From: Bacteroidota bacterium
Lineage (GTDB): Bacteria > Bacteroidota > Bacteroidia > B-17B0 > Aurantibacillaceae
Direction of reading: 5' to 3'
DNA: 64,000 nucleotides
Assembly: GCA_030692515.1 (NCBI GenBank)
Contig: JAUXZS010000015.1
Coordinates: 310,001 to 374,000, forward strand
Made by a program: the position numbers and the translations under genes. Within the stretch, counting starts at the first letter, position 1. Each line of letters begins with the position of its first letter. Of the stretch, positions 8,004-36,395 are shown in pieces. Below the pieces are notes generated by a model. That model was not told the DNA's origin and ran no database searches. It saw nothing but the letters and a program-made list of their open reading frames with translations.

Positions 8004-8714
8004 CTAAAAGTTAAATTTCTCCATCTCTAAGCTTGCTACATTAAAAATAAATAAAGTGTTAATAGAAATGTTTTGCTCTAAAATTACATTCAAGGTGTTT
8101 TGTGCCATCATACTTCCAATAACAGCAGGAATAGTGCCTAACACCCCATTTTCAGAACAATTAGGAACATCTTCCGCACTTGGTGGTTCAGGAAATATAT
8201 CGCGTAAATTTTTGCTGCCTTTATAATTAAAAACTGCCAACTGACCTTGGTAGTCTAAAATGCTACCATAAATTAAAGGCTTATTTAGTTTTACACAAAT
8301 ATCATTTACAACATAGCGCGTCAAAAAATTATCGCAACCATCGATAACAATATCATAATCAGATAAAACAGATTCTGCATTTATATCATTCAATAAAACA
8401 CGATGAGGTATTAGTTTAACGTAAGGATTTTGTGCAGATAATTTTTCTATAGCTACTTCTACTTTAAGTTTACCAATATCTTTTTGAGAATATAAAACCT
8501 GGCGGTGTAAATTTGATTCCTCTACGGTGTCAAAATCAATTACACCAATCGTTCCAACACCAACCGATACTAAATATTGTAACACGGGGCAGCCCAAGCC
8601 ACCGGCGCCAACTACAGCTACTTTAGCTTTTTTAATTTTTATTTGACCATTTATACCAATATCATCAAGCATTATTTGCTTTTGATACCTTTTAAATTCT
8701 TCTTTACTCAACAT
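8004..8714 (-). CDS. thiF: ThiF/MoeB/HesA family sulfur-carrier adenylyltransferase
   Basis: Adenylates the C-terminal glycine of the sulfur carrier ThiS so that it can be thiocarboxylated for thiazole synthesis. The Rossmann ATP loop is VVGAGGLGCPV (Gly36-Gly41), followed by DFDTVEESNLHRQ (residues 61-72) and the FPEPP signature. In relatives a CxxC zinc pair precedes FPEPP; here that site reads NLRDIFPEPP, and only one cysteine (Cys186 in NCSENGVLG) remains of the second pair, so the structural zinc site looks lost. The 236-residue length is near the family minimum. It is the last gene of the thiamine operon, abutting thiH with no gap. Confidence 0.87.
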   Translation of the reverse strand: MLSKEEFKRYQKQIMLDDIGINGQIKIKKAKVAVVGAGGLGCPVLQYLVSVGVGTIGVIDFDTVEESNLHRQVLYSQKDIGKLKVEVAIEKLSAQNPYVKLIPHRVLLNDINAESVLSDYDIVIDGCDNFLTRYVVNDICVKLNKPLIYGSILDYQGQLAVFNYKGSKNLRDIFPEPPSAEDVPNCSENGVLGTIPAVIGSMMAQNTLNVILEQNISINTLFIFNVASLEMEKFNF

Positions 8715-9827
8715 CTAATTAAATTGTCTATCCCAATCTTTATAAACAGGTTGGTAGCCTGATTGAGTTATTAAGTCGCTAATTTGTTTAACTGTTCTAT
8801 CATCACTAATTTCAAATTGTTCTAAGGAAGTTGGTTCTACAGAATAACCGCCTGGATTAGTTTTAGAACCTGCACTCATAGAGGTTACACCAAGTGGAAT
8901 AACATTATTTCTAAAATGTTCAGATTCTCTTGTGGAAATAGATAATTCAACATCTTCATTTAACAAACGGTAAGCAGATAATAATTGTACTAAATTTTTA
9001 TCATTTACAATTACATTTGGTTCGATGATACCTTCTGCAGGACGCATTCTTGGAAATGAAATTGAGTATTTAGTTTTCCAATATGTTTTTTGTAAGTAAT
9101 CTAAATGCAAGGCACAAAAAAATGAATCTACACGCCAATCTTCTAAACCTAGTAATACTCCCAATCCTATTTTATGAATTTGCGCTTCGCCAACTCTATC
9201 GGGAGTTTCTAGACGATAACTAAAGTTTGATTTTTTTCCTTTGGGATGATAGACTTTATACACTTCTTGATGGTAGGTTTCTTGATAAACCAATACAGAA
9301 TAAACACCAGCCTCGTGCAATTTTTTGTATTCTTCAACTTCTAATGGTTGAAATTCAATAGAAATGTTTGCGAAACTAGATTTAATTAAATTAATGGCAT
9401 TTAAAAAATAATCAATATTTACTGTGTGGTTTGATTCTCCTGTAACTAATAAAATGTGATTAAAGCCTTGCTGTTTGATTGCTTCTACTTCAAGAATTAA
9501 TTCAGCATCTGATAAAGTTTTTCGTTTTACTTTATTGTCTAAACTAAAACCACAATAAGTGCAAATATTATTACACTCATTACTTAAATACATAGGTGCA
9601 AATAATTGAATGGTTTTACCAAAACGTTTTTGAGTTAAAGCGCTTGATTTGTTAGCCATTTGTTCGATATACATTTCTGCCGCCGGCGAAATAAGCGCTT
9701 TAAAGTCTTCTAACGTAGGTTTGTTTGCCGCTAAAGCATTAATAACATCTTGTTTATTTTTAGAGTAGATAGATGTTTTTACATCTTCCCAATTGTATTG
9801 ATTAAATATGTTTGAAAAATTAGACAT
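8715..9827 (-). CDS. thiH: 2-iminoacetate synthase (tyrosine lyase)
   Basis: A radical S-adenosylmethionine enzyme that splits tyrosine to give dehydroglycine (2-iminoacetate) for the thiazole ring of thiamine. The [4Fe-4S] motif CX3CX2C is present as CNNICTYC (Cys85, Cys89, Cys92), and the protein has the family's usual 370 residues. [11 protein letters not shown] and [13 protein letters not shown] are further family signatures. The start overlaps the end of thiG by 8 nt. Using ThiH rather than the oxygen-dependent glycine oxidase ThiO is usual in Bacteroidota and somewhat striking beside aerobic genes such as hemF. Confidence 0.95.
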
Positions 9828-10590
9828 TTAAAAAAGAAGTTAAAGGACTACTTGCTTGCGCATTATTTTGAATACTTGCTAATTTTGCCTCATAGGCTAA
9901 GCGCCCAGCCTCTACCGCTAATTTAAAAGCTTTTGCCATTTGAACGGGATTTCCTGCAACTGCAATTGCGGTGTTTACCAATACTGCATCGGCGCCAATT
10001 TCCATTGCTTTAGCCGCATGTGATGGCGAACCAATACCTGCATCTATTATTACTGGCACTTTGCTTTGCTCAATAATTATTTCTAAAAAATCAATTGTTT
10101 TTAATCCTTTGTTTGTTCCAATAGGAGAGCCAAGCGGCATTACCGCCGATGTTCCCGCATCTTCTAACTGTTTGCACAACACTGGGTCGGCATGAATGTA
10201 TGGAAGTATTATAAAGCCCATTTTAGCTAATGCTTCAGTTGCTTTTAAAGTTTCTAATGCATCAGGTAATAAATATTTTGGGTCAGGATGAATTTCTAAT
10301 TTTAACCAATTTGTTTCTAAAGCCTCTCTCGCTAATTGAGCAGCAAAAATTGCCTCTTTTGCATTTCTTGCACCAGAAGTGTTTGGTAATAAATTAATGT
10401 GCGGATGTTTTAAATGAGATAATAAATTATCTGTTTCAGTTTCTAAATCAATACGTTTTAAAGCAACAGTTACTAATTCTGAACCTGAACTAATAACGGC
10501 TTCTTCCATCAATTTGGATGAACCAAATTTTCCTGTGCCTAAAAATAGGCGAGAGGAAAATTCTTTTTGAGCAATTTTAAGAGCTTGCAT
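9820..10590 (-). CDS. thiG: Thiazole synthase
   Basis: Condenses deoxyxylulose phosphate, dehydroglycine and sulfur from ThiS thiocarboxylate into the thiazole phosphate moiety of thiamine; cytoplasmic, working with ThiH. The TIM-barrel signatures are clear: [53 protein letters not shown] with the probable Schiff-base Lys97, [12 protein letters not shown] and [13 protein letters not shown]. At 256 residues it is full length. It overlaps thiE upstream (14 nt) and thiH downstream (8 nt), showing tight coupling. Confidence 0.96.
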
Positions 10591-11209
10591 ATAATTCGTT
10601 TTTTAATTGTTCAATTATATTTTTTTTGTTATTGGATTGTGTAATTATTCCTGAAGCTGCAATACCATAAACACCAGCGTTTAAAATACCTTCTATGTCT
10701 TCCGTCAAAATACCACCAATAGCATAAATAGGTGTTTTTTGTTGTAACTCATTTAACTCAGAAATAATTTTTTTGTATCCTTCTAAGCCTAAGATCGGAC
10801 TTAATTTATCTTTTGTATTTGTAAATCTATAAGGACCCAAACCAATGTAATTGCATTTTTCATCAATGCGTTGAATGACATGATTTAGTGTGTTTGCAGT
10901 ACCCCCAATTATTTTATTTTGTCCTAAAACTTCTCTGGCATTCATTATAGGCATGTCCAACAAGCCTAAATGAACACCGTCTGCATCACAATTTTTAGCA
11001 ATTAAAACATTATCGTTCATAATAAACACCGCCTTATATTTAGTACACAACTCTTTTACTTTTAACGCAGTGTTTTCAATTTCACTTGAATCAAAATTTT
11101 TCATGCGTAATTGAATCCATGTGCATCCCGCATCCAAAACTTCATGAATGTATTGAAGATGTTCTTTTGCTGAAGTTCCTTGTGAAATATATTGTAGTCT
11201 ATTATACAT
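10577..11209 (-). CDS. thiE: Thiamine phosphate synthase
   Basis: Joins HMP pyrophosphate and thiazole phosphate to thiamine monophosphate. The canonical residues are in place: WIQLRMK (pyrophosphate/substrate loop), MNDN followed by DADGVHLG, the GGTAN loop, [13 protein letters not shown] and AIGGI. The protein has 210 residues, normal for the family. It overlaps thiD by 8 nt and thiG by 14 nt. A second, diverged ThiE-like protein is encoded upstream in the same operon (11927-12538); this copy keeps the catalytic signatures and is the likely working enzyme. Confidence 0.94.
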
Positions 11210-11945
11210 TATGATATGCTAAAAGTGTTTCGTTGCTTGAAAGAATTGTTTCGATATATTTTTTGGATAATTTACAGGCTTCAATTAAAGAAGATCCTAA
11301 TGCAAGATTAGCGGTAATTGCTGCTGATAAAATACAACCAGAACCATGCTTAGCAAATGTTTTTGTGTTAGTTGGTGTAATTTCCACAATCTCATTGTTA
11401 GAATATAAATAATCTACACCAGGTTTTTCAATGCTGTGCCCACCTTTTAAAAACACATTACAATAAGTGGAAATTTCTTTTGCGGCTGCGGTTTCGTTAG
11501 TGTTTCCGGTAATTATTTTTGCCTCATCAATATTTGGCGTTATTAAATAGCATTTTTCTAAAATAGAATAAAATAAATTTTTATCAGAATCTTGTATAAA
11601 ATTAAAACCTGTTGATGATTTTAAAATTGGATCAACAATAATTTTAATGTTAGGATACTTTGAATGGATAAATGAAACTATTTTATTTAAATAATCTATA
11701 GAAGGTAAAATGCCCGTTTTTATAACTGAAACCGCGTGTTTAGTTAAAAGTATATCAAGCGTGGTTAAAACATCTTCTATTTTTTCCCAGCGAATTGTGT
11801 AAAAAGCATCCTCAGTTTGTAGAGTAATAGCAGTGCACACGCTTAAACCATAGATTTTATGTTGCTCAAACGTTTTTATGTCGGCAGTTAATCCTGCTCC
11901 GCTACTTGGGTCAAACCCCGCAATAGTTAAAACAAAATTTCGCAT
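11202..11945 (-). CDS. thiD: Hydroxymethylpyrimidine (phosphate) kinase
   Basis: Phosphorylates HMP and HMP phosphate to the pyrophosphate used by ThiE. A ribokinase-like fold is shown by the start LTIAGFDPSSGAGLTADIK, the conserved TGILPS, VDPILKSSTG, ITPNIDEAKIITG, FLKGGH, and the anion-hole motif HGSGCILSAAITA that carries the catalytic Cys/Gly region. At 247 residues it is slightly short, but nothing essential is missing. It overlaps both neighbours (thiE 8 nt; the ThiE-like gene 19 nt). Confidence 0.94.
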   Translation of the reverse strand: MRNFVLTIAGFDPSSGAGLTADIKTFEQHKIYGLSVCTAITLQTEDAFYTIRWEKIEDVLTTLDILLTKHAVSVIKTGILPSIDYLNKIVSFIHSKYPNIKIIVDPILKSSTGFNFIQDSDKNLFYSILEKCYLITPNIDEAKIITGNTNETAAAKEISTYCNVFLKGGHSIEKPGVDYLYSNNEIVEITPTNTKTFAKHGSGCILSAAITANLALGSSLIEACKLSKKYIETILSSNETLLAYHNV

Positions 11946-12537
11946 TTTTTTAATTCCTTTTTTAATGCAACAAACTCTTCGATTGGATTTTTACTTTCCC
12001 AAACGCTGCCTAAAACAGCTACACCATCAAATCCCCAACTTAAGGGCTCTGTACAATTTAATTTTGTAATGCCTCCTAAAGCTATAAGTTTTGTAGTTTG
12101 TTTTTTAATAGTTTTTAATTTCTGTTTAAAATCTACTGCCTTATAATTTTTTTTAGAAATACTATCAAACACCGGACTTAAAAAAGCATAACTAAAAGCA
12201 GTTGGTAAATTTTCAAACTCTTCAATTGAATGAACTGAAGTTGATAGCAGTGTTCCGCTTTTTTTTGTCTCTGATAAATTATCTGTACTTATTTTTTTTC
12301 GGTTTAAAGCAGGATAATGTAATCTATCAGAGCCATAAATTTTTGCCAAATAATGGTATTGATGAAAAACCAATTTTGAATAATGAACAGGATTTATTGA
12401 ATGAATTAGTTGTTTTAATTCTAATTCACTATAATTTGGTTTTCGTAAATGCAATAATTCTAAACCTTCATCAAATAATTGATTAATTAGATTAGCTTCA
12501 TTTTTTAAAGCAGTAGGATATGAAATAACAATTAGCA

Positions 12538-12538
<1 letters not shown>
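11927..12538 (-). CDS. ThiE/TenI-like protein in the thiamine operon
   Basis: A second member of the thiamine phosphate synthase superfamily. Barrel features remain (LHLRKP, LLSTSVHSIEEF, YAFLSPVFDSISKKNY, IALGGI), but the canonical NDN...DGVHLG stretch is replaced by HQYHYLAKIYGSDRLHYP, and the GTAN loop by STSVHS. This resembles TenI-type paralogues, which in other bacteria aromatise the thiazole product of ThiG instead of coupling it. That function is an inference from the family and the operon position between thiC and thiD. It ends by overlapping thiD by 19 nt and starts at the base where thiC ends. Confidence 0.8.
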
Positions 12539-14591
<2,053 letters not shown>

Positions 14592-28374: not shown

Positions 28375-29637
28375 ATGAAAACAAAAAATTCGTTCGCCGT
28401 ATTCTTTTATCCGCGATTAAACAGAACAAAAAATGGTAGCGCCCCACTGATAGCAAGACTTACAGTCAACAAACAACGCAAAGAAATTTCTTTGAAGTAC
28501 AACATCCCGGTCGACAAATGGAATGCTACCAAGCAAACCGTTAGCGGATCCTCGCCGGAAATTACCTCACTAAACAAATATATCTCCGAAATAAGGACAG
28601 AACTCCATAACGCCTATCGTCAGCTTCAAATAGAGAAAAAACTCGTCACAGCCGACGCAATTAAGGCAATTTTCCTTGGGGAAGAAGAAGATGCGAAGTC
28701 CGTTATGCAGGTAATTCAGTATCACAATGATACAATGAAAGACGTCCTTGCTTGGGGAACAGCCAAGAATTATTACACAACCCAAAAGTATGTCAAGGAG
28801 TTTTTGCAGGTAAAGTTGAAAACTTCGGATATCTATTTAACCCAACTTAACTACAAATTTCTCACAGATTTTGACGTGTTTTTACGCAATCATGTTCCTG
28901 GCGAAAATCAAAAACCTTGCTCAAATAATACGGTCATGAAGCACATCGAGAGGTTTCGGAAAATTATCACTATGGCCATCAAAAATGAGTGGCTAAAACA
29001 TGATCCTTTTTTGAAATTCAAACCTACGTTTATTAAAAAAGATCGCGGATTTTTATCTGAAGAAGAATTGGAAGCAATCGAAAATAAGCAAATTGAAAAT
29101 GTCAGTCTCAGTACTGTAAGAGATCTTTTTGTTTTTTCTTGCTATACCGGATTAGCATTTATTGATGCTTATAATTTAAAACCGGATAACTTAAACAAGG
29201 GAATTGATGGCAGATTATGGATTACTATTCACAGGCAAAAAACAGATGTAAAATCGCAGATACCTCTTTTGCCAAAAGCACTTGAAATATTGGACATCTA
29301 TAAAAATCATCCGAAAGTTAAACGAGATGGCACTTTACTTCCTATGCTTACAAATCAACGGTTCAATTCTTACTTAAAAGAAATTGCAGACATCACCGGT
29401 GTAACCAAAAATTTAACTCATCACCTGGCAAGGCACACATTCGCTACTACAATTTGTTTGTCAAACGGTATTTCAATGGAAGCAACTTCAGGTATGCTTG
29501 GTCATGCTTCAATGCGTACAACTCAAATTTACGGTAAAATTTTACCTAAGCGTATTAGTTCTGAAATGGAAGTGCTAATCGAGAAATTCAATAATAGAAA
29601 AACAAATAGTTTAGGTTTTGTAAGAGAAGCGCAATAA
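28375..29637 (+). CDS. Tyrosine recombinase (IntDOT-like site-specific integrase)
   Basis: Catalyses integration/excision of a mobile element by a tyrosine-linked DNA intermediate. The N-terminal part (about 1-95) resembles the arm-binding domain of Bacteroidota integrases (FAVFFYPRLNRTKNGSAPL, IPVDKWNATKQ); a SAM-like core-binding domain follows (about 105-205), then the catalytic domain: Lys in HRQKTDVKSQIPL, HLARHTF (His-x-x-Arg), GHASMRTTQIYG with His and the nucleophile Tyr. The first catalytic Arg is missing (YTGLAFIDAYNL), as known for IntDOT and many relatives. The first half is visibly less AT-rich than neighbouring genes, consistent with transfer. It sits next to tRNA-Pro. Confidence 0.92.
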   Translation: MKTKNSFAVFFYPRLNRTKNGSAPLIARLTVNKQRKEISLKYNIPVDKWNATKQTVSGSSPEITSLNKYISEIRTELHNAYRQLQIEKKLVTADAIKAIFLGEEEDAKSVMQVIQYHNDTMKDVLAWGTAKNYYTTQKYVKEFLQVKLKTSDIYLTQLNYKFLTDFDVFLRNHVPGENQKPCSNNTVMKHIERFRKIITMAIKNEWLKHDPFLKFKPTFIKKDRGFLSEEELEAIENKQIENVSLSTVRDLFVFSCYTGLAFIDAYNLKPDNLNKGIDGRLWITIHRQKTDVKSQIPLLPKALEILDIYKNHPKVKRDGTLLPMLTNQRFNSYLKEIADITGVTKNLTHHLARHTFATTICLSNGISMEATSGMLGHASMRTTQIYGKILPKRISSEMEVLIEKFNNRKTNSLGFVREAQ

Positions 29638-29873
29638 TTTATCCTAATTAATAACCAAAACGATTCATATGCCTCGTATTTTCAATTTCATCTTGTATTA
29701 TTAATAATTGAAAAATATATTTATCTGATTGTTTCACTTTCTTAAATTAAGTAACTTTTAATAGGCAGACACATCTGGATTAGTACATAGTAATTTGTTA
29801 AATGACGGATCTCCCAATTAACTAAAAAAATATTCGTAATGAATCAGGATTAAGTATTAACTAAATTTTATTG

Positions 29874-29881
29874 TACTTTTG
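29874..29881 (+). promoter_or_regulatory. Predicted -7 box of the Crp/Fnr gene
   Basis: TACTTTTG matches TAnnTTTG and ends 7 nt before ATG 29889, so the message would be nearly or fully leaderless. No TTG at the -33 distance. Confidence 0.45.
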
Positions 29882-29888
29882 AAAAAGC

Positions 29889-30458
29889 ATGTATTCTCTT
29901 CTTCAACAAACGATAAAAAATACAATTTCTATTTCGGAAGTAGATATTAATTTTATGTTATCCTTATTCAAGCCGTTAACACTTAGAAAAGATGACTATT
30001 TTTTGGAAATTGGAAAAAAATGCAACCATGTTGCTTTCGTTAAATCAGGGATGTTGCGGATATATTATCCTAATGAAAAAGCAGAAGAAACTACCTGTTA
30101 TTTCTCAATGCCTAACGAATTTGTAACTTCATTTTCAAGTTTTACGACAGGAAATCCGTCAATAGAAAACATACAAGCAATTCTGCCAACTGAATTATTC
30201 GTTATAAAAAAACAAGACCTTGAAATGTTATATCAAAAAATTCCTGTAACACAAGAGTTTGGTAGAAAAGCAGCAGAAAATCTCACCATTATTATGGAAA
30301 AAAGAATTTCACTATTCTTAAACAACTCAGCGGATGAACGCTATCAACTTTTATTAAAGAATGATCCTATTCTAATCCAAACAGTTCCACTACAATATCT
30401 TGCTTCATATCTTGGTATTTCAGCACAACATTTGAGTAGATTGAGAAAAAACACTTAG
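29889..30458 (+). CDS. Crp/Fnr family transcriptional regulator
   Basis: A 189-residue cyclic-nucleotide-binding-fold regulator. Residues about 20-115 form the beta-roll (DDYFLEIGKKCNHVAFVKSGMLRIYY), a long dimer helix follows (about 118-150), and the C-terminal helix-turn-helix is VPLQYLASYLGISAQHLSRLRK (about 165-186). No Fnr-type cysteine cluster is present. A decayed close copy lies at 48740-49235, proving a past duplication. It precedes a gene for an outer-membrane protein by about 85 nt, with a separate TAAATTTG box (30491-30498) between; ligand and targets unknown. Confidence 0.88.
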   Translation: MYSLLQQTIKNTISISEVDINFMLSLFKPLTLRKDDYFLEIGKKCNHVAFVKSGMLRIYYPNEKAEETTCYFSMPNEFVTSFSSFTTGNPSIENIQAILPTELFVIKKQDLEMLYQKIPVTQEFGRKAAENLTIIMEKRISLFLNNSADERYQLLLKNDPILIQTVPLQYLASYLGISAQHLSRLRKNT

Positions 30459-30542
30459 CTTTATTTTCTTCGCAAATGTTCAGTGGAATTTAAATTTGTT
30501 CAACGAATTTTGTGCCTTAATCATTAAATAAAAAAAGGCACA

Positions 30543-31220
30543 ATGCAAAAGTTTAAAAAATCATTCATAGTTATCACAACATCATTATTGCTTATTCAGA
30601 CCTGTTTCGCACAAGATACAAAGCAGAAAAAAACCTTTCTTTATTCTAATCGATTTAGTTTATTAGCAGGGCTAATCCAGCCCGTTGTACTAAAAGGCGG
30701 AAATATAGAGGTAACCTATTTCACAAAAAGAATGAGCTTCGATTATTCTCACGGTTTTCTATTGAACATGGCTGGGGAAACAATGGTGGGTGATGCAAAG
30801 GCACAAAAATTAGCCTATCATTTACCATATTCTACAGGTTTTGGTATTGGCTATCGATTGACTTCCTTTTTTGATATCCGAATAGAACCTAAGATGCATA
30901 GTTGGGAAGTATACTATGATGGAGAAACACAAAACAAAATTAATTTAATAAAATCGTATAAAACTTATTCACTCGGACTTGGTGCTTATTATAGATACAT
31001 GCCTTTTCATAAAAAAGACAATTGGCTACAAGGTATAACAACCAGTACTAGTTTGCGTTGGTGGCCAAATATAGGCACTAGTTTAAAAGATGATAAATTT
31101 ATTTATCACAATAAAATCACAAACAATAACGAAACTTTAAAGGCTTCAAATATTGGTATTGCCGGCTCGCAGTTTTTATTTAATATAAGCGTTGGTTATA
31201 CTTTTGGTAGGAAGCAGTAA
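30543..31220 (+). CDS. Exported protein, probable outer-membrane beta-barrel
   Basis: A 225-residue protein with a signal peptide (about 1-23, ending CFAQ) and repeated amphipathic strands rich in Tyr/Gly (GFGIGYRLTSFFDIRIEP, YSLGLGAYYRYMPF, FLFNISVGYTFG near the end). No enzyme motif. A TAAATTTG promoter box lies at 30491-30498, so it has its own promoter but may also be a target of the adjacent Crp/Fnr regulator; that link is inferred only from position. Confidence 0.7.
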   Translation: MQKFKKSFIVITTSLLLIQTCFAQDTKQKKTFLYSNRFSLLAGLIQPVVLKGGNIEVTYFTKRMSFDYSHGFLLNMAGETMVGDAKAQKLAYHLPYSTGFGIGYRLTSFFDIRIEPKMHSWEVYYDGETQNKINLIKSYKTYSLGLGAYYRYMPFHKKDNWLQGITTSTSLRWWPNIGTSLKDDKFIYHNKITNNNETLKASNIGIAGSQFLFNISVGYTFGRKQ

Positions 31221-31363
31221 CGATCTTACTTATTTTATAATGATGGGCAGTGCTAATTAATTAGATTAAAAAAAACTATTTAAAAACCCTGTAACCTTTC
31301 CGTTTGTCATATACTCTAATGTTGTATAAGTCAAAATTAATTTAACAATCTAAAAAAATTAAA

Positions 31364-31747
31364 ATGGAAAGTATCAATTTAAATCAGTCAATTAAACCAA
31401 CATTTAATCTGCTTAAACTAACATTTGGTATCGTACCTATTGTTGCAGGATTAGATAAATTCACTAATATCCTTACAAACTGGGAACAATATGTTCATCC
31501 AGGCCTTGGAAGCATGTTACCCTTTTCTGCATCAGTATTTATGATGATTGTTGGTGTTATTGAAATTGTGGCCGGAATAATTGTGCTAAAGAAAACAGAA
31601 ATAGGTGGTTATATTGTTGCGGCATGGTTAACATTAATAGCACTTACTCTGTTGGCAAGTTTTAAATTCATGGACGTAGCCGTTCGTGATCTTGTTATGG
31701 CAATTGCAGCTTTCTCCATGGCTCGCATAGCTAAATTAGTTAAATAA
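31364..31747 (+). CDS. DoxX-like integral membrane protein
   Basis: A 127-residue protein with four hydrophobic helices (about 20-36, 52-75, 82-103, 106-122) and the DoxX-like pattern GIVPIVAGLDKFTNILTNW at the first helix. Members sit in the inner membrane and are often found with oxidative-stress or quinone/thiosulfate genes, but their activity is mostly undefined. It is followed after 62 nt by a haem lipoprotein gene, which fits a redox setting. Confidence 0.75.
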   Translation: MESINLNQSIKPTFNLLKLTFGIVPIVAGLDKFTNILTNWEQYVHPGLGSMLPFSASVFMMIVGVIEIVAGIIVLKKTEIGGYIVAAWLTLIALTLLASFKFMDVAVRDLVMAIAAFSMARIAKLVK

Positions 31748-31809
31748 GCCGTTTGCTTGTAACCTATTTCATCAACAACCACTCTAATACTCTATAAACC
31801 ATATATAAA

Positions 31810-32154
31810 ATGAAAAAAATAATAGTAATTGCTTCAGTACTAATCTCAATAACAGTAGCTTGTAAATCAAAAAAAGCTGCAACTTCAACCGCTTCCACTG
31901 ATTCTAGTATGGATGCACAATTAACCGCTGTAAATACCCGGTTTCCGAATACTACAATGGAAGAATTGAAAAAAGGGCATTCCATATACACGGGTGCTTG
32001 TACAAAGTGTCACGGCACCAAAGATGTAACGGTTTATACAGAGCCTAGATTATTAGAAATAGTGGATGTGATGGCTGTAAAAGCAAAATTAACAGCAGAA
32101 GAAAAACAATCCTTAATAAAATTTGCTGTTGGAGTGAGAGCAACATCAAAATAA
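31810..32154 (+). CDS. Small c-type cytochrome lipoprotein
   Basis: A 114-residue protein with a lipoprotein signal (lipobox ITVAC, Cys18), a Ser/Thr/Ala linker, and one haem-binding site CTKCH (within TGACTKCHGTKDVTVYT). A methionine in IVDVMAVKAKLT is the candidate second iron ligand. The size and single haem point to an electron-transfer role in the periplasm. It lies 16 nt before the ECF sigma gene. Confidence 0.85.
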   Translation: MKKIIVIASVLISITVACKSKKAATSTASTDSSMDAQLTAVNTRFPNTTMEELKKGHSIYTGACTKCHGTKDVTVYTEPRLLEIVDVMAVKAKLTAEEKQSLIKFAVGVRATSK

Positions 32155-32170
32155 TCCTCAACTTTATAGT

Positions 32171-32833
32171 ATGACGAGTATAAAAGAATTTGAGCATTAT
32201 TCTGATGCCGAAATAATTGGTAAAATATTAGAGGGTGAAAGTAAACTCTATGAATTACTGATTCGTAGAAACAATCCGTTTTTATATAAAATTGGAAGGT
32301 CTTATAATTACACCCATCACGATACAGAAGACTTGATGCAGGAAACTTATATTAATGCATTTTATAGTTTGTCAAAATTTGAAGGTAAATCCTCTTTTAA
32401 AACATGGGTTACAAGAATAATGCTCAATAACTGTTATCAAAAAAACAAAAGAAGCAGCTATAAAAATGAAAACCCTGTTCATGAAATAACTCTCGAAAAA
32501 AATAATCCAATGTTTCAAAATCAAGCTAGTACCGAAAAGACTATTTTAAATAAAGAACTGGGGCATGTATTGGAAAATGCACTTAATAAAATCCCCGAAG
32601 ATTACCGGGTAGTATTTACATTACGAGAATTAAATGGACTTAATGTTGCAGAAACCTCTGAAGTGACCAATATTACTGAAACCAATGTGAAAGCTAGATT
32701 AAGTAGAGCAAAAACCATGTTACGATCAGAAATTGAAAAAATGTATTCTCCCGAAGATATCTACGAATTTAACTTGGTTTATTGTGATAGAATGGTAGAG
32801 CGAGTAATGGCAAATATTAATACTGATAAATAA
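32171..32833 (+). CDS. ECF-type RNA polymerase sigma factor
   Basis: A 220-residue sigma-70 family factor with region 2 (HHDTEDLMQETYINAFYSL, about residues 56-74) and region 4 (PEDYRVVFTLRELNGLNVAE, about 140-160, then TETNVKARLSRAKTMLR). It has a C-terminal tail of about 30 residues (EDIYEFNLVYCDRMVERVM) beyond region 4. No anti-sigma gene is adjacent; folE follows after 9 nt and is presumably co-transcribed. Confidence 0.9.
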   Translation: MTSIKEFEHYSDAEIIGKILEGESKLYELLIRRNNPFLYKIGRSYNYTHHDTEDLMQETYINAFYSLSKFEGKSSFKTWVTRIMLNNCYQKNKRSSYKNENPVHEITLEKNNPMFQNQASTEKTILNKELGHVLENALNKIPEDYRVVFTLRELNGLNVAETSEVTNITETNVKARLSRAKTMLRSEIEKMYSPEDIYEFNLVYCDRMVERVMANINTDK

Positions 32834-32842
32834 AAAGGGACA

Positions 32843-33511
32843 ATGATAGAAGATGTTTTAACTGAAAAACTATTATCCGAAATAAACGAGGAACATTTCA
32901 GTAGCTCGTTAGATACTCCTATGCGTGAAGGTGCCTTTAACTTAAATGACACGCAAAAAATCAAAATTATTGCTGAACATTTTAAACAAATTATGCATAC
33001 GCTAGGTTTAGATTTAACAGATGATAGTTTAAAAGACACTCCTCTCAGAGTGGCAAAGATGTATGTTAAAGAAGCTTTTAGTGGGTTAAATCCAGCGAAT
33101 AAGCCGCAAGCGGCATTGTTTGATAATAAGTATCAATACAACGAAATGTTAGTTGAAAAGAACATTACACTTTATTCCTATTGTGAACACCACTTTGTTC
33201 CCATAATTGGTAAAGTGCATGTAGCTTATATCTCATCTAACAATAAAGTAATCGGGCTATCAAAAATTAATCGTATAGTTGAATACTTTGCAAAACGACC
33301 TCAAGTCCAAGAGCGCTTAACCAATCAGATAGCTAATGAATTAAAGATGGCTTTAAATAGCGAACATGTAGCTGTAGTAATTGATGCAGTTCATCTTTGC
33401 GTTAGTTCAAGAGGCATAAAAGATACAAATAGTACCACAATTACTTCGTATTATTCCGGTAAGTTTCAAGAGGAGAAACTAAAAATGGAGTTTTTAGCTT
33501 TGATCAAATAA
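32843..33511 (+). CDS. folE: GTP cyclohydrolase I
   Basis: Converts GTP to dihydroneopterin triphosphate, the first step to folate and other pterins; cytoplasmic zinc enzyme. The zinc ligands are recognisable in YCEHHFVP (Cys, His) and HLCVSSRGI (Cys), and IGLSKINRIVEYFAKRPQVQ is the signature helix. The 222-residue length is normal for the type I enzyme, with a variable N-terminus. It is unusual to find it 9 nt behind an ECF sigma gene in an accessory region; a second housekeeping copy elsewhere is possible and cannot be seen here. Confidence 0.95.
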   Translation: MIEDVLTEKLLSEINEEHFSSSLDTPMREGAFNLNDTQKIKIIAEHFKQIMHTLGLDLTDDSLKDTPLRVAKMYVKEAFSGLNPANKPQAALFDNKYQYNEMLVEKNITLYSYCEHHFVPIIGKVHVAYISSNNKVIGLSKINRIVEYFAKRPQVQERLTNQIANELKMALNSEHVAVVIDAVHLCVSSRGIKDTNSTTITSYYSGKFQEEKLKMEFLALIK

Positions 33512-33592: not shown

Positions 33593-33645
33593 TTTGTATA
33601 GTAAGGAATCCTTACTATATTTGTATTGTAATTGCAATTACAATA
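33593..33645 (+). promoter_or_regulatory. Promoter with two overlapping operator-like inverted repeats
   Basis: TTTG (33593-33596), exactly 19 nt, then TATATTTG (33616-33623). An inverted repeat with 11-bp perfect arms (TATAGTAAGGA, one A, complement; 33597-33619) fills the spacer and overlaps the -7 box. A second perfect palindrome (TATTGTAATTG and complement, 33624-33645) starts right after the -7 box and covers the transcription start. Both are plausible binding sites for a dimeric repressor, most simply the MarR protein at the end of the operon. Confidence 0.8.
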
Positions 33646-33680
33646 AATCTAATTATTATTAATATCTAAAAAACAAAAAA

Positions 33681-33914
33681 ATGAGCAAACCAGTTTTCTT
33701 TCACGCAGGTTGTTCTGTTTGCGTAAGCGCAGAGCACGACATCATTAATCTACTTGGTGCAAATAATGTAGATATTGTACACTTTGGTACAGATAAATCA
33801 AGAATTGCAGAAGCTGAAAAGGCGGGCGTAAAATCTGTTCCTGCATTAGTAACTCCAAATGGCAATGTATTACACATTAATTTTGGAGCATCAATGGCAG
33901 ATGTAAAAGGCTAA
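33681..33914 (+). CDS. Minimal thioredoxin-fold protein (CSVC)
   Basis: A 77-residue protein with a redox-type CxxC at Cys11/Cys14 (FFHAGCSVCVSAEHD) and a cis-proline loop at Pro54 (KSVPALVT), in glutaredoxin-like order and size. There is no signal peptide, so it should be cytoplasmic. It is the first gene of the MarR-linked operon, about 50 nt after the probable start of transcription. A paralogue with the same residue numbering follows at 33964. Confidence 0.75.
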   Translation: MSKPVFFHAGCSVCVSAEHDIINLLGANNVDIVHFGTDKSRIAEAEKAGVKSVPALVTPNGNVLHINFGASMADVKG

Positions 33915-33920
33915 AAAAAT

Positions 33921-33948
33921 AATGCCCTGCTAGTAATAGCAGGGCATT
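33921..33948 (+). terminator. Strong hairpin between the two thioredoxin-like genes
   Basis: AATGCCCTGCTA (33921-33932), loop GTAA, and the exact complement (33937-33948) form a 12-bp perfect stem 6 nt past the first gene. Only TTAAG follows rather than a T-run, so partial termination or protection of the upstream message is more likely than full termination. Confidence 0.6.
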
Positions 33949-33963
33949 TAAGTTCATCGATCT

Positions 33964-34203
33964 ATGAAAAATTTAATGCTTTATCACGATGGATGTGACA
34001 TTTGTGCAGCTATTGGACAAGAAATTATAAATCTAATTGGACTTGCCAATTTGGACATCATTCATATTGGACTTAATCCTTCACGAATGGAAGAAGCTAA
34101 AAAAATTGGAATAAAGGCCTTTCCTGCCTTAGTAACTAGCAATGGAAATGTACTACATTTTAATGTTGAAGAGCATGAAGGAAGTATATCTTGCTTGTTT
34201 TAA
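33964..34203 (+). CDS. Minimal thioredoxin-fold protein (CDIC)
   Basis: A 79-residue paralogue of the gene upstream: Cys11/Cys14 in YHDGCDICAAIGQE and Pro54 in KAFPALVT, with VDIVHFG matched by LDIIHIG. The C-terminal tail differs (EEHEGSISCLF) and holds an extra cysteine. Tandem duplication with divergence around the active site suggests two partner specificities. Cytoplasmic; no signal peptide. Confidence 0.75.
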   Translation: MKNLMLYHDGCDICAAIGQEIINLIGLANLDIIHIGLNPSRMEEAKKIGIKAFPALVTSNGNVLHFNVEEHEGSISCLF

Positions 34204-34233
34204 AAATTATAAACATTAATTAAAACAAAAAAA

Positions 34234-34965
34234 ATGAAAAAACTATTTTATACAATGTCTCTAGCGACACTACTTATAGCCTCAAAAGCATTTGCGTGCG
34301 ATAAGTGTCAAAAATTTAAAAATGATAATTTCTTTATTGTATCTACAAGTGCCAACTACAATACTAATTTAAAACAAGTGGTAATGTCTATACAGGTAAA
34401 AGGACAAGCAGGCGTAACCATGCCTGATTCAATCGGAAAATTAGATGGTGCGGGGGTTTTGGGTTATGTTTTTCCAACAACATTAAAACCTGAAGATGTA
34501 GGATTTAATCAAACAGAAGGTATCGTAGCTTTAGCGCTTACTTCACATCCTGACTTTGATGATTCTCCGTTATGGGATGAAAACAATAATGGTGTTTTTT
34601 CTGATGATGGTCGTGTTTGGCATCCACACTGGGTAATACTGGTGAAAGATGAGAGGGTGAAAGGCGGACTTGCTGTAAAAGAATTTAAAAAAGAAGATAA
34701 GAATGTAAAGCTGCCGCCAACAGCTCCAAATATGCCGATGTATATGGATAGTCCTGGCTTTCAGGTGGTAACAAAAGGAAATACGATTCAGGTTGTCATT
34801 CCATCGTACAGAATTAACAACAAAAATGATTTTAAATTTGATGCAGTTACCTGCTACATGTCTGTTAATACTTCCGATATGATGATGCCTATGCTTGGTG
34901 TAATGGATGTTTATAGCGTTGCATCAGGTAAATTAACTTTGCCTTATACTATAAAAATAAAATAA
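34234..34965 (+). CDS. Exported protein of unknown function with an N-terminal CxxC
   Basis: I do not recognise this 243-residue protein. A signal peptide (about 1-21, cleavage near SKAFA) leaves a mature start with Cys22 and Cys25 (CDKCQKF). An acidic, calcium-loop-like stretch DENNNGVFSDDGR is followed by VWHPHWVILV, whose two histidines could bind a metal, and a Met-rich stretch SDMMMPMLGVMD. Strands dominate the rest. Location is periplasmic or extracellular. Being in one operon with redox and MarR genes suggests a redox or metal role, but that is inference. Confidence 0.6.
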   Translation: MKKLFYTMSLATLLIASKAFACDKCQKFKNDNFFIVSTSANYNTNLKQVVMSIQVKGQAGVTMPDSIGKLDGAGVLGYVFPTTLKPEDVGFNQTEGIVALALTSHPDFDDSPLWDENNNGVFSDDGRVWHPHWVILVKDERVKGGLAVKEFKKEDKNVKLPPTAPNMPMYMDSPGFQVVTKGNTIQVVIPSYRINNKNDFKFDAVTCYMSVNTSDMMMPMLGVMDVYSVASGKLTLPYTIKIK

Positions 34966-34974
34966 TTATAACCA

Positions 34975-35014
34975 AAGCCCGACACGCATTGAAATAGTTT
35001 ATGCGTGTCGGCTT
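34975..35014 (+). terminator. Intra-operon hairpin before the DUF2024 genes
   Basis: AAGCCCGACACGCAT (34975-34989) pairs with ATGCGTGTCGGCTT (35001-35014) with one bulged C. No T-run follows. It is the second such hairpin in this operon and probably sets the ratio of upstream to downstream message. Confidence 0.6.
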
Positions 35015-35028
35015 AAAAATTAGATTCT

Positions 35029-35307
35029 ATGGAAATATCACTATACGATACCGTATTTAAAAAAGAAGATGGTAATCTCTTAAAGTTTGACATCATTGTT
35101 CCCTCAGAGTTCAAGGATATAGATAAAATTTACCAATTTGGTAATGAGTTTTTAAAAGAAGAAGGGATAAAGGCAAAAAAACTAATTAGCGCCGAGGAGT
35201 GCGATTTTTGTCACATGGAAATTGCTAATGAAAAGATTTCAGGAGAAATAAAGGAAAAGGGATATTCTATTTTCAAACATTGGGGTTTTGAGAAAAATTT
35301 AATCTAG
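35029..35307 (+). CDS. DUF2024 family protein
   Basis: A 92-residue protein with the DUF2024 pattern: start ISLYDTVFKKEDG, KFDIIVPSE, and the CDFCHME motif (Cys58, Cys61, His62), which could bind a metal ion or a thiol. The function of the family is not established. It is the first of a tandem pair; compared with the second copy it has a longer C-terminus. Cytoplasmic. Confidence 0.75.
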   Translation: MEISLYDTVFKKEDGNLLKFDIIVPSEFKDIDKIYQFGNEFLKEEGIKAKKLISAEECDFCHMEIANEKISGEIKEKGYSIFKHWGFEKNLI

Positions 35308-35341
35308 CAATTCAAATAAACACAATTTTAAATTTAATAAG

Positions 35342-35605
35342 ATGAATGTAGCAGTTTGGGATACTTATGTAACAAAAACAGATGGCACTATTATGCATTT
35401 TGATATTATTGCACCTTCCGAAGTAAAAGACAGCGAAGTTATATATGCTTACGGCAAGGCATATTTAACATCAAAAGGGCTAACTGAGCAATCATTAACA
35501 GCAAAAGAATGTACTTTTTGCCACGTAGAGTCAATAAAACCTATGTGGGAAGATGCCATAATTAAAAATGGTTATTATATTTACGAAATGGAAAATTGCA
35601 ACTAA
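35342..35605 (+). CDS. DUF2024 family protein, second copy
   Basis: An 87-residue protein closer to the usual DUF2024 form: VAVWDTYVTKTDGTIMHFDI at the start (20 residues), AKECTFCHVES (Cys57, Cys60, His61), and the end GYYIYEMENCN. It is followed with no gap by the MarR gene (stop 35605, next ATG 35606). The tandem arrangement repeats the duplication seen for the two thioredoxin-like genes at the other end of the operon. Confidence 0.8.
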   Translation: MNVAVWDTYVTKTDGTIMHFDIIAPSEVKDSEVIYAYGKAYLTSKGLTEQSLTAKECTFCHVESIKPMWEDAIIKNGYYIYEMENCN

Positions 35606-36214
35606 ATGAAGAGATCTGTTTTCGATAATAAATTTCAAGAAGAAAGTGTTGAAAGTAAAATAGTAGTGGCATTAGAAAGAATTTCTGAGGCCTTTCGAGT
35701 TTTGCTTTGGGAAGAAAGCAAAGAACACGCCTTAAGTCCTATACAGACACAAATATTGATTTATTGTTTATATCATAAATCTGATAAGACAACAGTAAGC
35801 AATTTGGCCAATGAGTTTAATATGACAAAGTCAACAATTAGTGATTCTGTAAAATCCTTATTGACTAAAAAACTAATCATTAAAGAAACTGAATCTGATG
35901 ACAATAGAAGTTATTCAATCAAACTTACTGATTCAGGGAGATTGTTAGCGAAGAAGGTGTCGCTATTCGCAAACAAAATTCTTGAGCCTTTAGCTAATTC
36001 AACTAATGCGCAAAACGAGCTTTTGCTTTCTAGTTTACTTGGCTTAATTTCAAATCTTCAAAATACTGGTGTTATTTCTATAAACCGCATGTGTTTATCT
36101 TGTCGCTTTCACGAATTAAAAAAGGAGCAACATTATTGCCATTTATTAAATACAACGCTTAAAAAATCAGATCTTCGTATCGATTGCCCTGAACACGAAG
36201 TAGTGCTTACTTAA
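35606..36214 (+). CDS. MarR family regulator with a cysteine-rich C-terminal extension
   Basis: A winged-helix dimeric repressor type. The DNA-reading helix is in LANEFNMTKSTISDSVKSL (residues 67-85) and the wing in TESDDNRSYSIKLTDSGR (95-112). Beyond the usual MarR end, residues 160-195 hold a conserved Cys pattern: CLSC (Cys163, Cys166), HYCH (Cys178) and DCPEH (Cys194), which looks like a metal or Fe-S site and may be the sensor. As the last gene of the operon and with two palindromes at its promoter (33597-33645), it is probably an autoregulator. A broken copy of its 3' end follows. Confidence 0.88.
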   Translation: MKRSVFDNKFQEESVESKIVVALERISEAFRVLLWEESKEHALSPIQTQILIYCLYHKSDKTTVSNLANEFNMTKSTISDSVKSLLTKKLIIKETESDDNRSYSIKLTDSGRLLAKKVSLFANKILEPLANSTNAQNELLLSSLLGLISNLQNTGVISINRMCLSCRFHELKKEQHYCHLLNTTLKKSDLRIDCPEHEVVLT

Positions 36215-36269
36215 TATTATCAACGCAATGTGTTGCTGTATCTTATTGGGGTTATCACAATACAAAAGG

Positions 36270-36395
36270 ATGTGCTTAACTTGCTCCTATTACAAATTAA
36301 GCAGCAACGGAAAACAATATTTTTTTAGCCTGTTAAATCAAAAACTTGCGGCCACCGGATTACGTATCGACCGTCCGGAGTATAATTTAAATTAA
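36270..36395 (+). pseudogene. Remnant of a second MarR C-terminal domain
   Basis: An open stretch beginning RMCLTCSYYKL and ending GLRIDRPEYNLN aligns with the last 42 residues of the MarR protein just upstream (RMCLSCRFHEL ... LRIDCPEHE). Homology continues upstream only in another frame (GVITIQ versus GVISIN), so a frameshift lies near 36265. The later cysteines of the motif are replaced (YCHLL by YFFSLL, DCPE by DRPE). It looks like a decayed duplicate of the regulator. Confidence 0.7.

Follow-up and report, generated by a model that had tools for sequence, protein, structure and literature searches.

In the 64,000-nucleotide stretch of Bacteroidota DNA analysed here (the window; contig JAUXZS010000015.1, positions 310,001 to 374,000), six same-strand genes at 33681-36214 (plus strand) constitute an operon which, by comparison across genomes, represents a recurrent cross-phylum unit, characterized by a MarR-family regulator with a constant four-cysteine tail and by a palindrome that overlaps the core promoter and tracks this regulator. 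The gene calls together with the promoter sequence confirm the arrangement first proposed, six adjacent genes behind a single promoter of Bacteroidota type (33593-33623), and comprise two thioredoxin-like proteins (Trx1, Trx2), an exported protein (EXP), two DUF2024 proteins and the regulator. As for its role, the chances appear about even that the operon is a locally autoregulated detoxification or repair unit for reactive nitrogen.

A profile search with Trx, the anchor gene of the conserved operon, yielded at least 569 confirmed relatives, from which the best 80 loci were kept; these are mainly from Bacteroidota and also from Balneolaceae, Ignavibacteriae, Acidobacteria and Betaproteobacteria. 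A MarR with the four-cysteine tail lies downstream of Trx in 69 of the 75 loci long enough, a rate biased upward because the 80 loci are the nearest Trx relatives. Of the same 80 loci at least 45 contain DUF2024, 18 contain EXP, 14 a YggS-type pyridoxal phosphate (PLP) protein, eight a truncated globin and five RIC, small genes being undercounted since they were called with a simple open reading frame (ORF) chooser. The original prediction would have been abandoned had these genes not been found together elsewhere; in fact they are together far beyond chance, and conservation of the operon is as good as certain. Furthermore, in a Pseudomonadota sample drawn evenly over the phylum and picked by the MarR tail alone, the Cys-tailed MarR is present in 28 of 397 genomes; of its 30 loci, 25 adjoin Trx, EXP, DUF2024, Rof, a redoxin, MOSC, HTHP, P460 or protoglobin, while on a Thermus plasmid the Cys-tailed MarR stands beside cytochrome P460. 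Trx is found in just 13 of 296 evenly drawn Bacteroidota genomes, and parts of the system reside on plasmids of Hymenobacter, Spirosoma, Enterobacter, Phaeobacter and Thermus, indicating an accessory and probably mobile system; the Enterobacter MarR-Trx pair matched nothing at the DNA level in complete E. coli genomes. Three Chryseobacterium loci (L022, L027, L039) carry the same Trx behind a MocR/cupin/DHDPS-family cluster, without operator, MarR or DUF2024, and genes of this type are also located beside full operons in L003 and L085.

The window promoter reads TTTG-N19-TATATTTG on the plus strand, with the -33 element TTTG at 33593-33596, a 19-nt spacer and the -7 element TATATTTG at 33616-33623, and the putative operator, the 19-nt palindrome TAGTAAGGAATCCTTACTA (33599-33617), lies inside the spacer. 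The arrangement is shared, as TAGTTAGGAnTCCTtACTATATTTG is found upstream of Trx in 75 loci at a median of 45 nt before the start codon, its palindrome TAGTWAGGANTCCTWACTA running into or abutting the -7 box, and in 65 of 75 relatives the operator is followed by TAnnTTTG. Among the testable loci, operator and MarR are both present in 65 and both missing in four (L022, L027, L035, L039), the operator occurs alone in one (L079) and MarR alone in none (Fisher p 5e-6); L015, where the sequence is too short, was left out of this table. Self-regulation by MarR at this operator, as originally suggested, is thus very probable. In addition, GTWAGGNNNCCTWAC has a single match in the 4.33 Mb window genome, at the operon promoter, and zero to two matches in each relative tested, and this rarity fits a local autorepressor role for MarR better than that of a global regulator. 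A second perfect palindrome of 22 nt, TATTGTAATTGCAATTACAATA (33624-33645), is located 3' of the -7 box and is a possible second binding site; 35 of 75 relatives have a weaker palindrome at this place (GGCAATAWTGCC, at most two mismatches).

The operator of Pseudomonadota differs: TATCGANTCGATA, with at most two mismatches, is found in divergent MarR/Trx, MarR/EXP and MarR/P460 intergenic regions. In one genome (G421) an exact, unlinked TATCGANTCGATA copy precedes a MOSC gene by 74 nt, which ties MOSC independently to the regulon; the other two of three such matches away from the operon, in G498 and G608, are inside unrelated genes and were dropped. Moreover, a second operator-like palindrome, TTAGGNNNCCTAA (at most one mismatch), follows the Trx stop codon by 15-36 nt in 45 of 80 loci, 25 of them exact, and exact TTAGGNNNCCTAA matches number 40 near Trx, both sites pooled, vs two elsewhere in 857 kb. 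In several loci this copy forms the apex of a terminator-like hairpin, and it may act as an internal promoter, roadblock or attenuator. The loci with a TTAGGNNNCCTAA-type palindrome less than 40 nt after the Trx stop include L018, L019 and L055. Where relatives carry the second operator, the window has a plain hairpin, AATGCCCTGCTAGTAATAGCAGGGCATT (33921-33948, plus strand, -20.7 kcal/mol), between Trx1 and Trx2, with a T-rich tail on the minus strand only, and another hairpin (34975-35014, plus strand, -21.0 kcal/mol) is located between EXP and the first DUF2024 gene. With two such strong intergenic hairpins a uniform single transcript is not certain, and the downstream genes may differ from Trx1 in level.

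The putative repressor itself (35606-36214, 202 aa) scores above the cut-offs of HTH_27 and MarR_2 (32.9 bits vs 27 for the latter). In the AlphaFold2 model, the core adopts the usual MarR fold, aligning with ST1710 at Z 15.8 and a root-mean-square deviation (rmsd) of 2.7 over 140 residues in a comparison restricted to residues 8-158, which barely covers the tail. The predicted extra C-terminal domain with four cysteines is present (36083-36196; C163, C166, C178, C194) and is modelled with moderate confidence as short strands. All four cysteines of its pattern, CX2C-X(8-20)-C-X(14-15)-C, are kept by each of the 48 relatives aligned (48 of 48) and by representatives of Bacteroidota, Proteobacteria and Thermus. 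Invariant cysteines separated by variable spacers suggest a metal or iron-sulfur (Fe-S) site, and judged from this pattern the tail probably holds one or the other, whereas for an Fe-S cluster specifically the case falls slightly short of even. Among characterized families the regulator is a member neither of the zinc-dependent MarR AdcR, its best NCBIfam match (NF038251, 31.9 bits vs a cut-off of 175), nor of SufR (TIGR02702, 13.5 vs 178.8) nor of OhrR as represented by one NCBIfam equivalog (24.8 vs 200), and the Pfam and NCBIfam scans gave no Rrf2 match that would place it with Rrf2/NsrR.

Regarding the proteins probably under its control, Trx1 (33681-33914, 77 aa) is predicted to have a thioredoxin fold with the motif CSVC, and Trx2 (33964-34203, 79 aa) is a divergent paralogue with CDIC. 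The Trx family profile matches the solved structure 2k8s, named 'Thioredoxin', at E 7.2e-39, which places the window proteins in the same close family; they fall below the cut-off of the generic Pfam thioredoxin models, and the CxxC is kept in 82 of 82 Trx relatives. DUF2024a (35029-35307, 92 aa, CDFCH) and DUF2024b (35342-35605, 87 aa, CTFCH) are full members of PF09630 (84.9 and 113.6 bits, cut-off 27), here inside a regulated operon, and DUF2024b matches the solved relative 2hfq at E 1.3e-17. Both 2k8s and 2hfq are, we presume, proteins of the ammonia oxidiser Nitrosomonas europaea. The two tandem pairs noted at the outset are indeed present, but their sequences indicate old or local paralogues and not fresh duplications, as Trx1 and Trx2 are 44% and DUF2024a and DUF2024b 38% identical, Trx2 was not seen in most relatives, and most relatives have a single Trx and a single DUF2024. 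DUF2024b is 50-56% identical to the Hymenobacter and Spirosoma copies, and it lies nearer than DUF2024a to the DUF2024 of two other tested Bacteroidota, which have only one such protein.

EXP (34234-34965, 243 aa) belongs to no Pfam or NCBIfam family and is predicted to be secreted and to fold as a beta-sandwich; three histidines (H105, H130, H132) are invariant, and the region of a D-x-DG loop is largely so; it may bind metal or heme. The N-terminal cysteines noted at the outset are not a defining trait, since the CxxC is missing in many Bacteroidota members and in every Proteobacterial member. No Foldseek match reached E<=0.001, and the top non-antibody row, 2ivf_C (the ethylbenzene dehydrogenase gamma-type heme domain; Z 6.9, rmsd 4.4, 148 aligned), is tied with antibody rows and within noise.

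Taken as a mechanism, a MarR dimer on TAGTWAGGANTCCTWACTA would cover the -33/-7 region, block RNA polymerase and thereby repress its own operon, the overlap of the sites being seen and the binding inferred. The tail cysteines would ligate an Fe-S cluster (or zinc) that serves as the sensor, and nitric oxide (NO), or hydroxylamine made from NO, would damage this site and release the repressor, for which the regulator ArnR provides a precedent. Release would then allow the Trx-like, DUF2024 and EXP proteins to be made for the repair or removal of nitrosative damage, with related loci supplying hemoproteins suited to this task (truncated globin, protoglobin, P460, HTHP), the YiiM-type MOSC and B6 proteins.

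The preference for reactive nitrogen derives from the neighbour genes. RIC, identified by the TIGR03652 equivalog above cut-off, occurs in five of 80 loci vs 0.11 expected (p about 1e-7), and when the Pfam families of co-oriented neighbours are counted without bias, Hemerythrin and ScdA_N come out at or near the top, the latter tied with AAA. A truncated globin lies inside the operon in four loci (L011, L012, L014, L015), protoglobin occurs in L003, L073 and L142, P460 in Thermus and L161, HPP in L018 and Hmp near the Hymenobacter copy, and an Rrf2 protein adjoins some loci. A supposed 'HMP' beside the MarR of L138 was dropped, as the match is weak (30 bits) and the protein, by likeness to an annotated gene of L008, is a VanB-type oxidoreductase. 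In two loci, L018 (2611-5540) and L059 (2934-5916), a truncated globin, a tryptophan-2,3-dioxygenase-like protein, RIC and hemerythrin are all found beside the operon, joined in L059 by Rrf2. The neighbouring MOSC is of the YiiM type, and YiiM acts on N-hydroxylated compounds. Vitamin-B6 proteins (YggS, PdxK-like, MocR) likewise recur, which would suit hydroxylamine, a poison of PLP. The recurrence of NO/hydroxylamine-type hemoproteins, RIC, YiiM-type MOSC and B6 proteins makes reactive nitrogen a better guess than the sulfide or metal originally favoured, and for NO or hydroxylamine as the main signal we see roughly equal chances either way.

Several observations weigh against reactive nitrogen and the proposed cluster. 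A nitrogen-specific neighbour is found in a minority of loci only; among the five RIC loci, L018 and L042 have nearly identical context, which lowers the true weight of the enrichment; and at genome level RIC is not significantly more frequent where Trx is present (8/13 vs 110/283, p 0.15). In the host genome, NirK is not above cut-off and NosZ was not found, so NO would have an external source. The four cysteines could equally hold zinc, and old yellow enzymes, redoxins or a carboxymuconolactone decarboxylase are encoded at some Pseudomonadota loci, which suits electrophiles or peroxides.

The latter loci lead to the thiol-reactive agent that had first been envisaged. Here electrophiles or oxidants (hypochlorite, quinones, organosulfur compounds) would oxidise or alkylate the tail cysteines, bare or Zn-bound, and the Trx-like proteins and redoxin would repair thiols. 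Cysteine-sensing MarR regulators, of the OhrR and SarZ types, are indeed common, Redoxin/AhpC-like proteins lie near many Pseudomonadota loci, an AhpD-like protein is among the nearby genes, and old yellow enzymes (3/64 scanned neighbours) and one carboxymuconolactone decarboxylase protein were found; HTHP, moreover, is linked to peroxide electrocatalysis (PMC4813847). While these keep the idea alive, it leaves the globin, RIC, P460, protoglobin and Rrf2 neighbours unexplained, and the tail, whose four constant cysteines include a CxxC pair and are spaced variably, resembles a metal site and not a peroxidatic thiol; with the neighbours favouring reactive nitrogen, we consider this idea rather unlikely. 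A further alternative is metal or sulfide homeostasis, in which MarR would sense zinc or copper in the manner of AdcR: apart from the four-cysteine tail and the AdcR family as best, far-under-cut-off NCBIfam match, this signal lacks neighbourhood support, as no metal transporter, P-type ATPase, sulfide:quinone reductase or persulfide dioxygenase is among the recurrent neighbours listed, and we hold it to be very improbable.

An agent attacking PLP or heme (hydroxylamine, hydrazine proper or cyanide) would account for the B6 proteins as replacing or protecting PLP and for MOSC and P460 as removing N-hydroxy compounds. YggS is present in 14 of 80 loci vs about 0.25 expected, assuming one per genome, a ptsJ/yggS/PdxK-like cluster lies beside the operon on the Enterobacter plasmid and in L151, the YiiM type of MOSC fits as well, and MpaR, a regulator of cyanide-modified PLP, is cited as known in PMC11837568. 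On the other hand, RIC and globins indicate NO, and rhodanese, nitrilase and cyanide-insensitive oxidase are not recurrent, leaving such an agent distinctly unlikely; hydroxylamine, common to it and to the reactive-nitrogen explanation, may be the true signal.

MarR regulators, C-terminal cysteine sensors and autoregulation are each already known, whereas their combination, the operator and the gene set are apparently undescribed: consistent with the initial claim, no match was found in the open-access literature searched, most subscription papers being outside it. The same searches returned one unrelated paper for DUF2024 and nothing for NE0084/NE1680 or for a MarR with truncated hemoglobin in Bacteroidetes, and the main text of a 2005 comparative reconstruction of nitrogen-oxide regulons leaves MarR and thioredoxin unmentioned. 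Closest in logic is ArnR of Corynebacterium, a winged helix-turn-helix repressor of nar and hmp that senses NO through a C-terminal [4Fe-4S] cluster and controls NO detoxification, as proposed here (PMC12343034). ArnR has three cysteines (179, 193, 223) without CxxC and is near-exclusively found in Actinobacteria (PMC12343034), whereas the present MarR, compared by motif only, has four invariant ones and another gene set. SufR resembles it in concept (a winged helix-turn-helix with C-terminal Fe-S cysteines), but the regulator is far under the SufR cut-off and no suf genes were seen nearby; the NsrR/Rrf2 NO regulons overlap in neighbour genes (RIC, globins), but the regulator here is a MarR and not an Rrf2 protein. 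CioR, like it a MarR autorepressor of a stress operon, was rejected as a match because it belongs to the GbsR subgroup and to a cytochrome bd operon (PMC11837568).

We tentatively propose, with more doubt than for the signal itself, a cross-phylum MarR family whose Cys4 Fe-S tail would sense NO or hydroxylamine, with a regulon of EXP, DUF2024, the 77-aa Trx, YiiM-type MOSC and B6-protecting proteins, distinct from NsrR, NorR, DNR/NnrR, HcpR and ArnR. A common regulator and a common, defined operator connect at least three function-unknown families (EXP, DUF2024 and the 77-aa Trx-like protein), whose role is thereby testable with a single reporter. If reactive nitrogen is the signal, a MarR-type sensor would join the known NO regulators, and a hydroxylamine/B6 arm of nitrosative defence would be suggested in Bacteroidota.

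Concerning the history of the locus, EXP was found in only one (G034) of 36 other genomes searched in the genus. This genome has two tandem operon copies (L163, 9793-17721), copy A reading Trx-EXP-DUF2024-DUF2024-YggS-glutamine amidotransferase-MarR and copy B Trx-DUF2024-DUF2024-MarR, separated by DoxX-like, cytochrome-like, ECF sigma and folE genes as found upstream of the window operon. On either side of Trx2 and EXP (33951-35028) the window is 92-95% identical in DNA sequence to copy B, and its operon therefore looks like copy B with an insertion, copy A having been lost, as we infer from these alignments. The region 5' of the operon (28375-33511) encodes a tyrosine recombinase, a Crp-like regulator, an outer-membrane protein, a DoxX-like protein, a cytochrome-like lipoprotein, an ECF sigma factor and folE, and from the Crp-like gene on these also stand beside the G034 operon (95-98% DNA identity). 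At the 3' end, the extent first assigned, to 36395, takes in a seventh plus-strand ORF (36228-36395) beyond the six genes. This ORF is a degenerate remnant of a MarR tail, 36% identical over 53 aa, that has lost the third and fourth cysteine and contains no HTH. Elsewhere in the window a thiamine biosynthesis cluster (8004-14382; thiC and others, with a ThiF-like protein) is present, and thi genes also lie next to the Spirosoma plasmid copy of the operon (L004).

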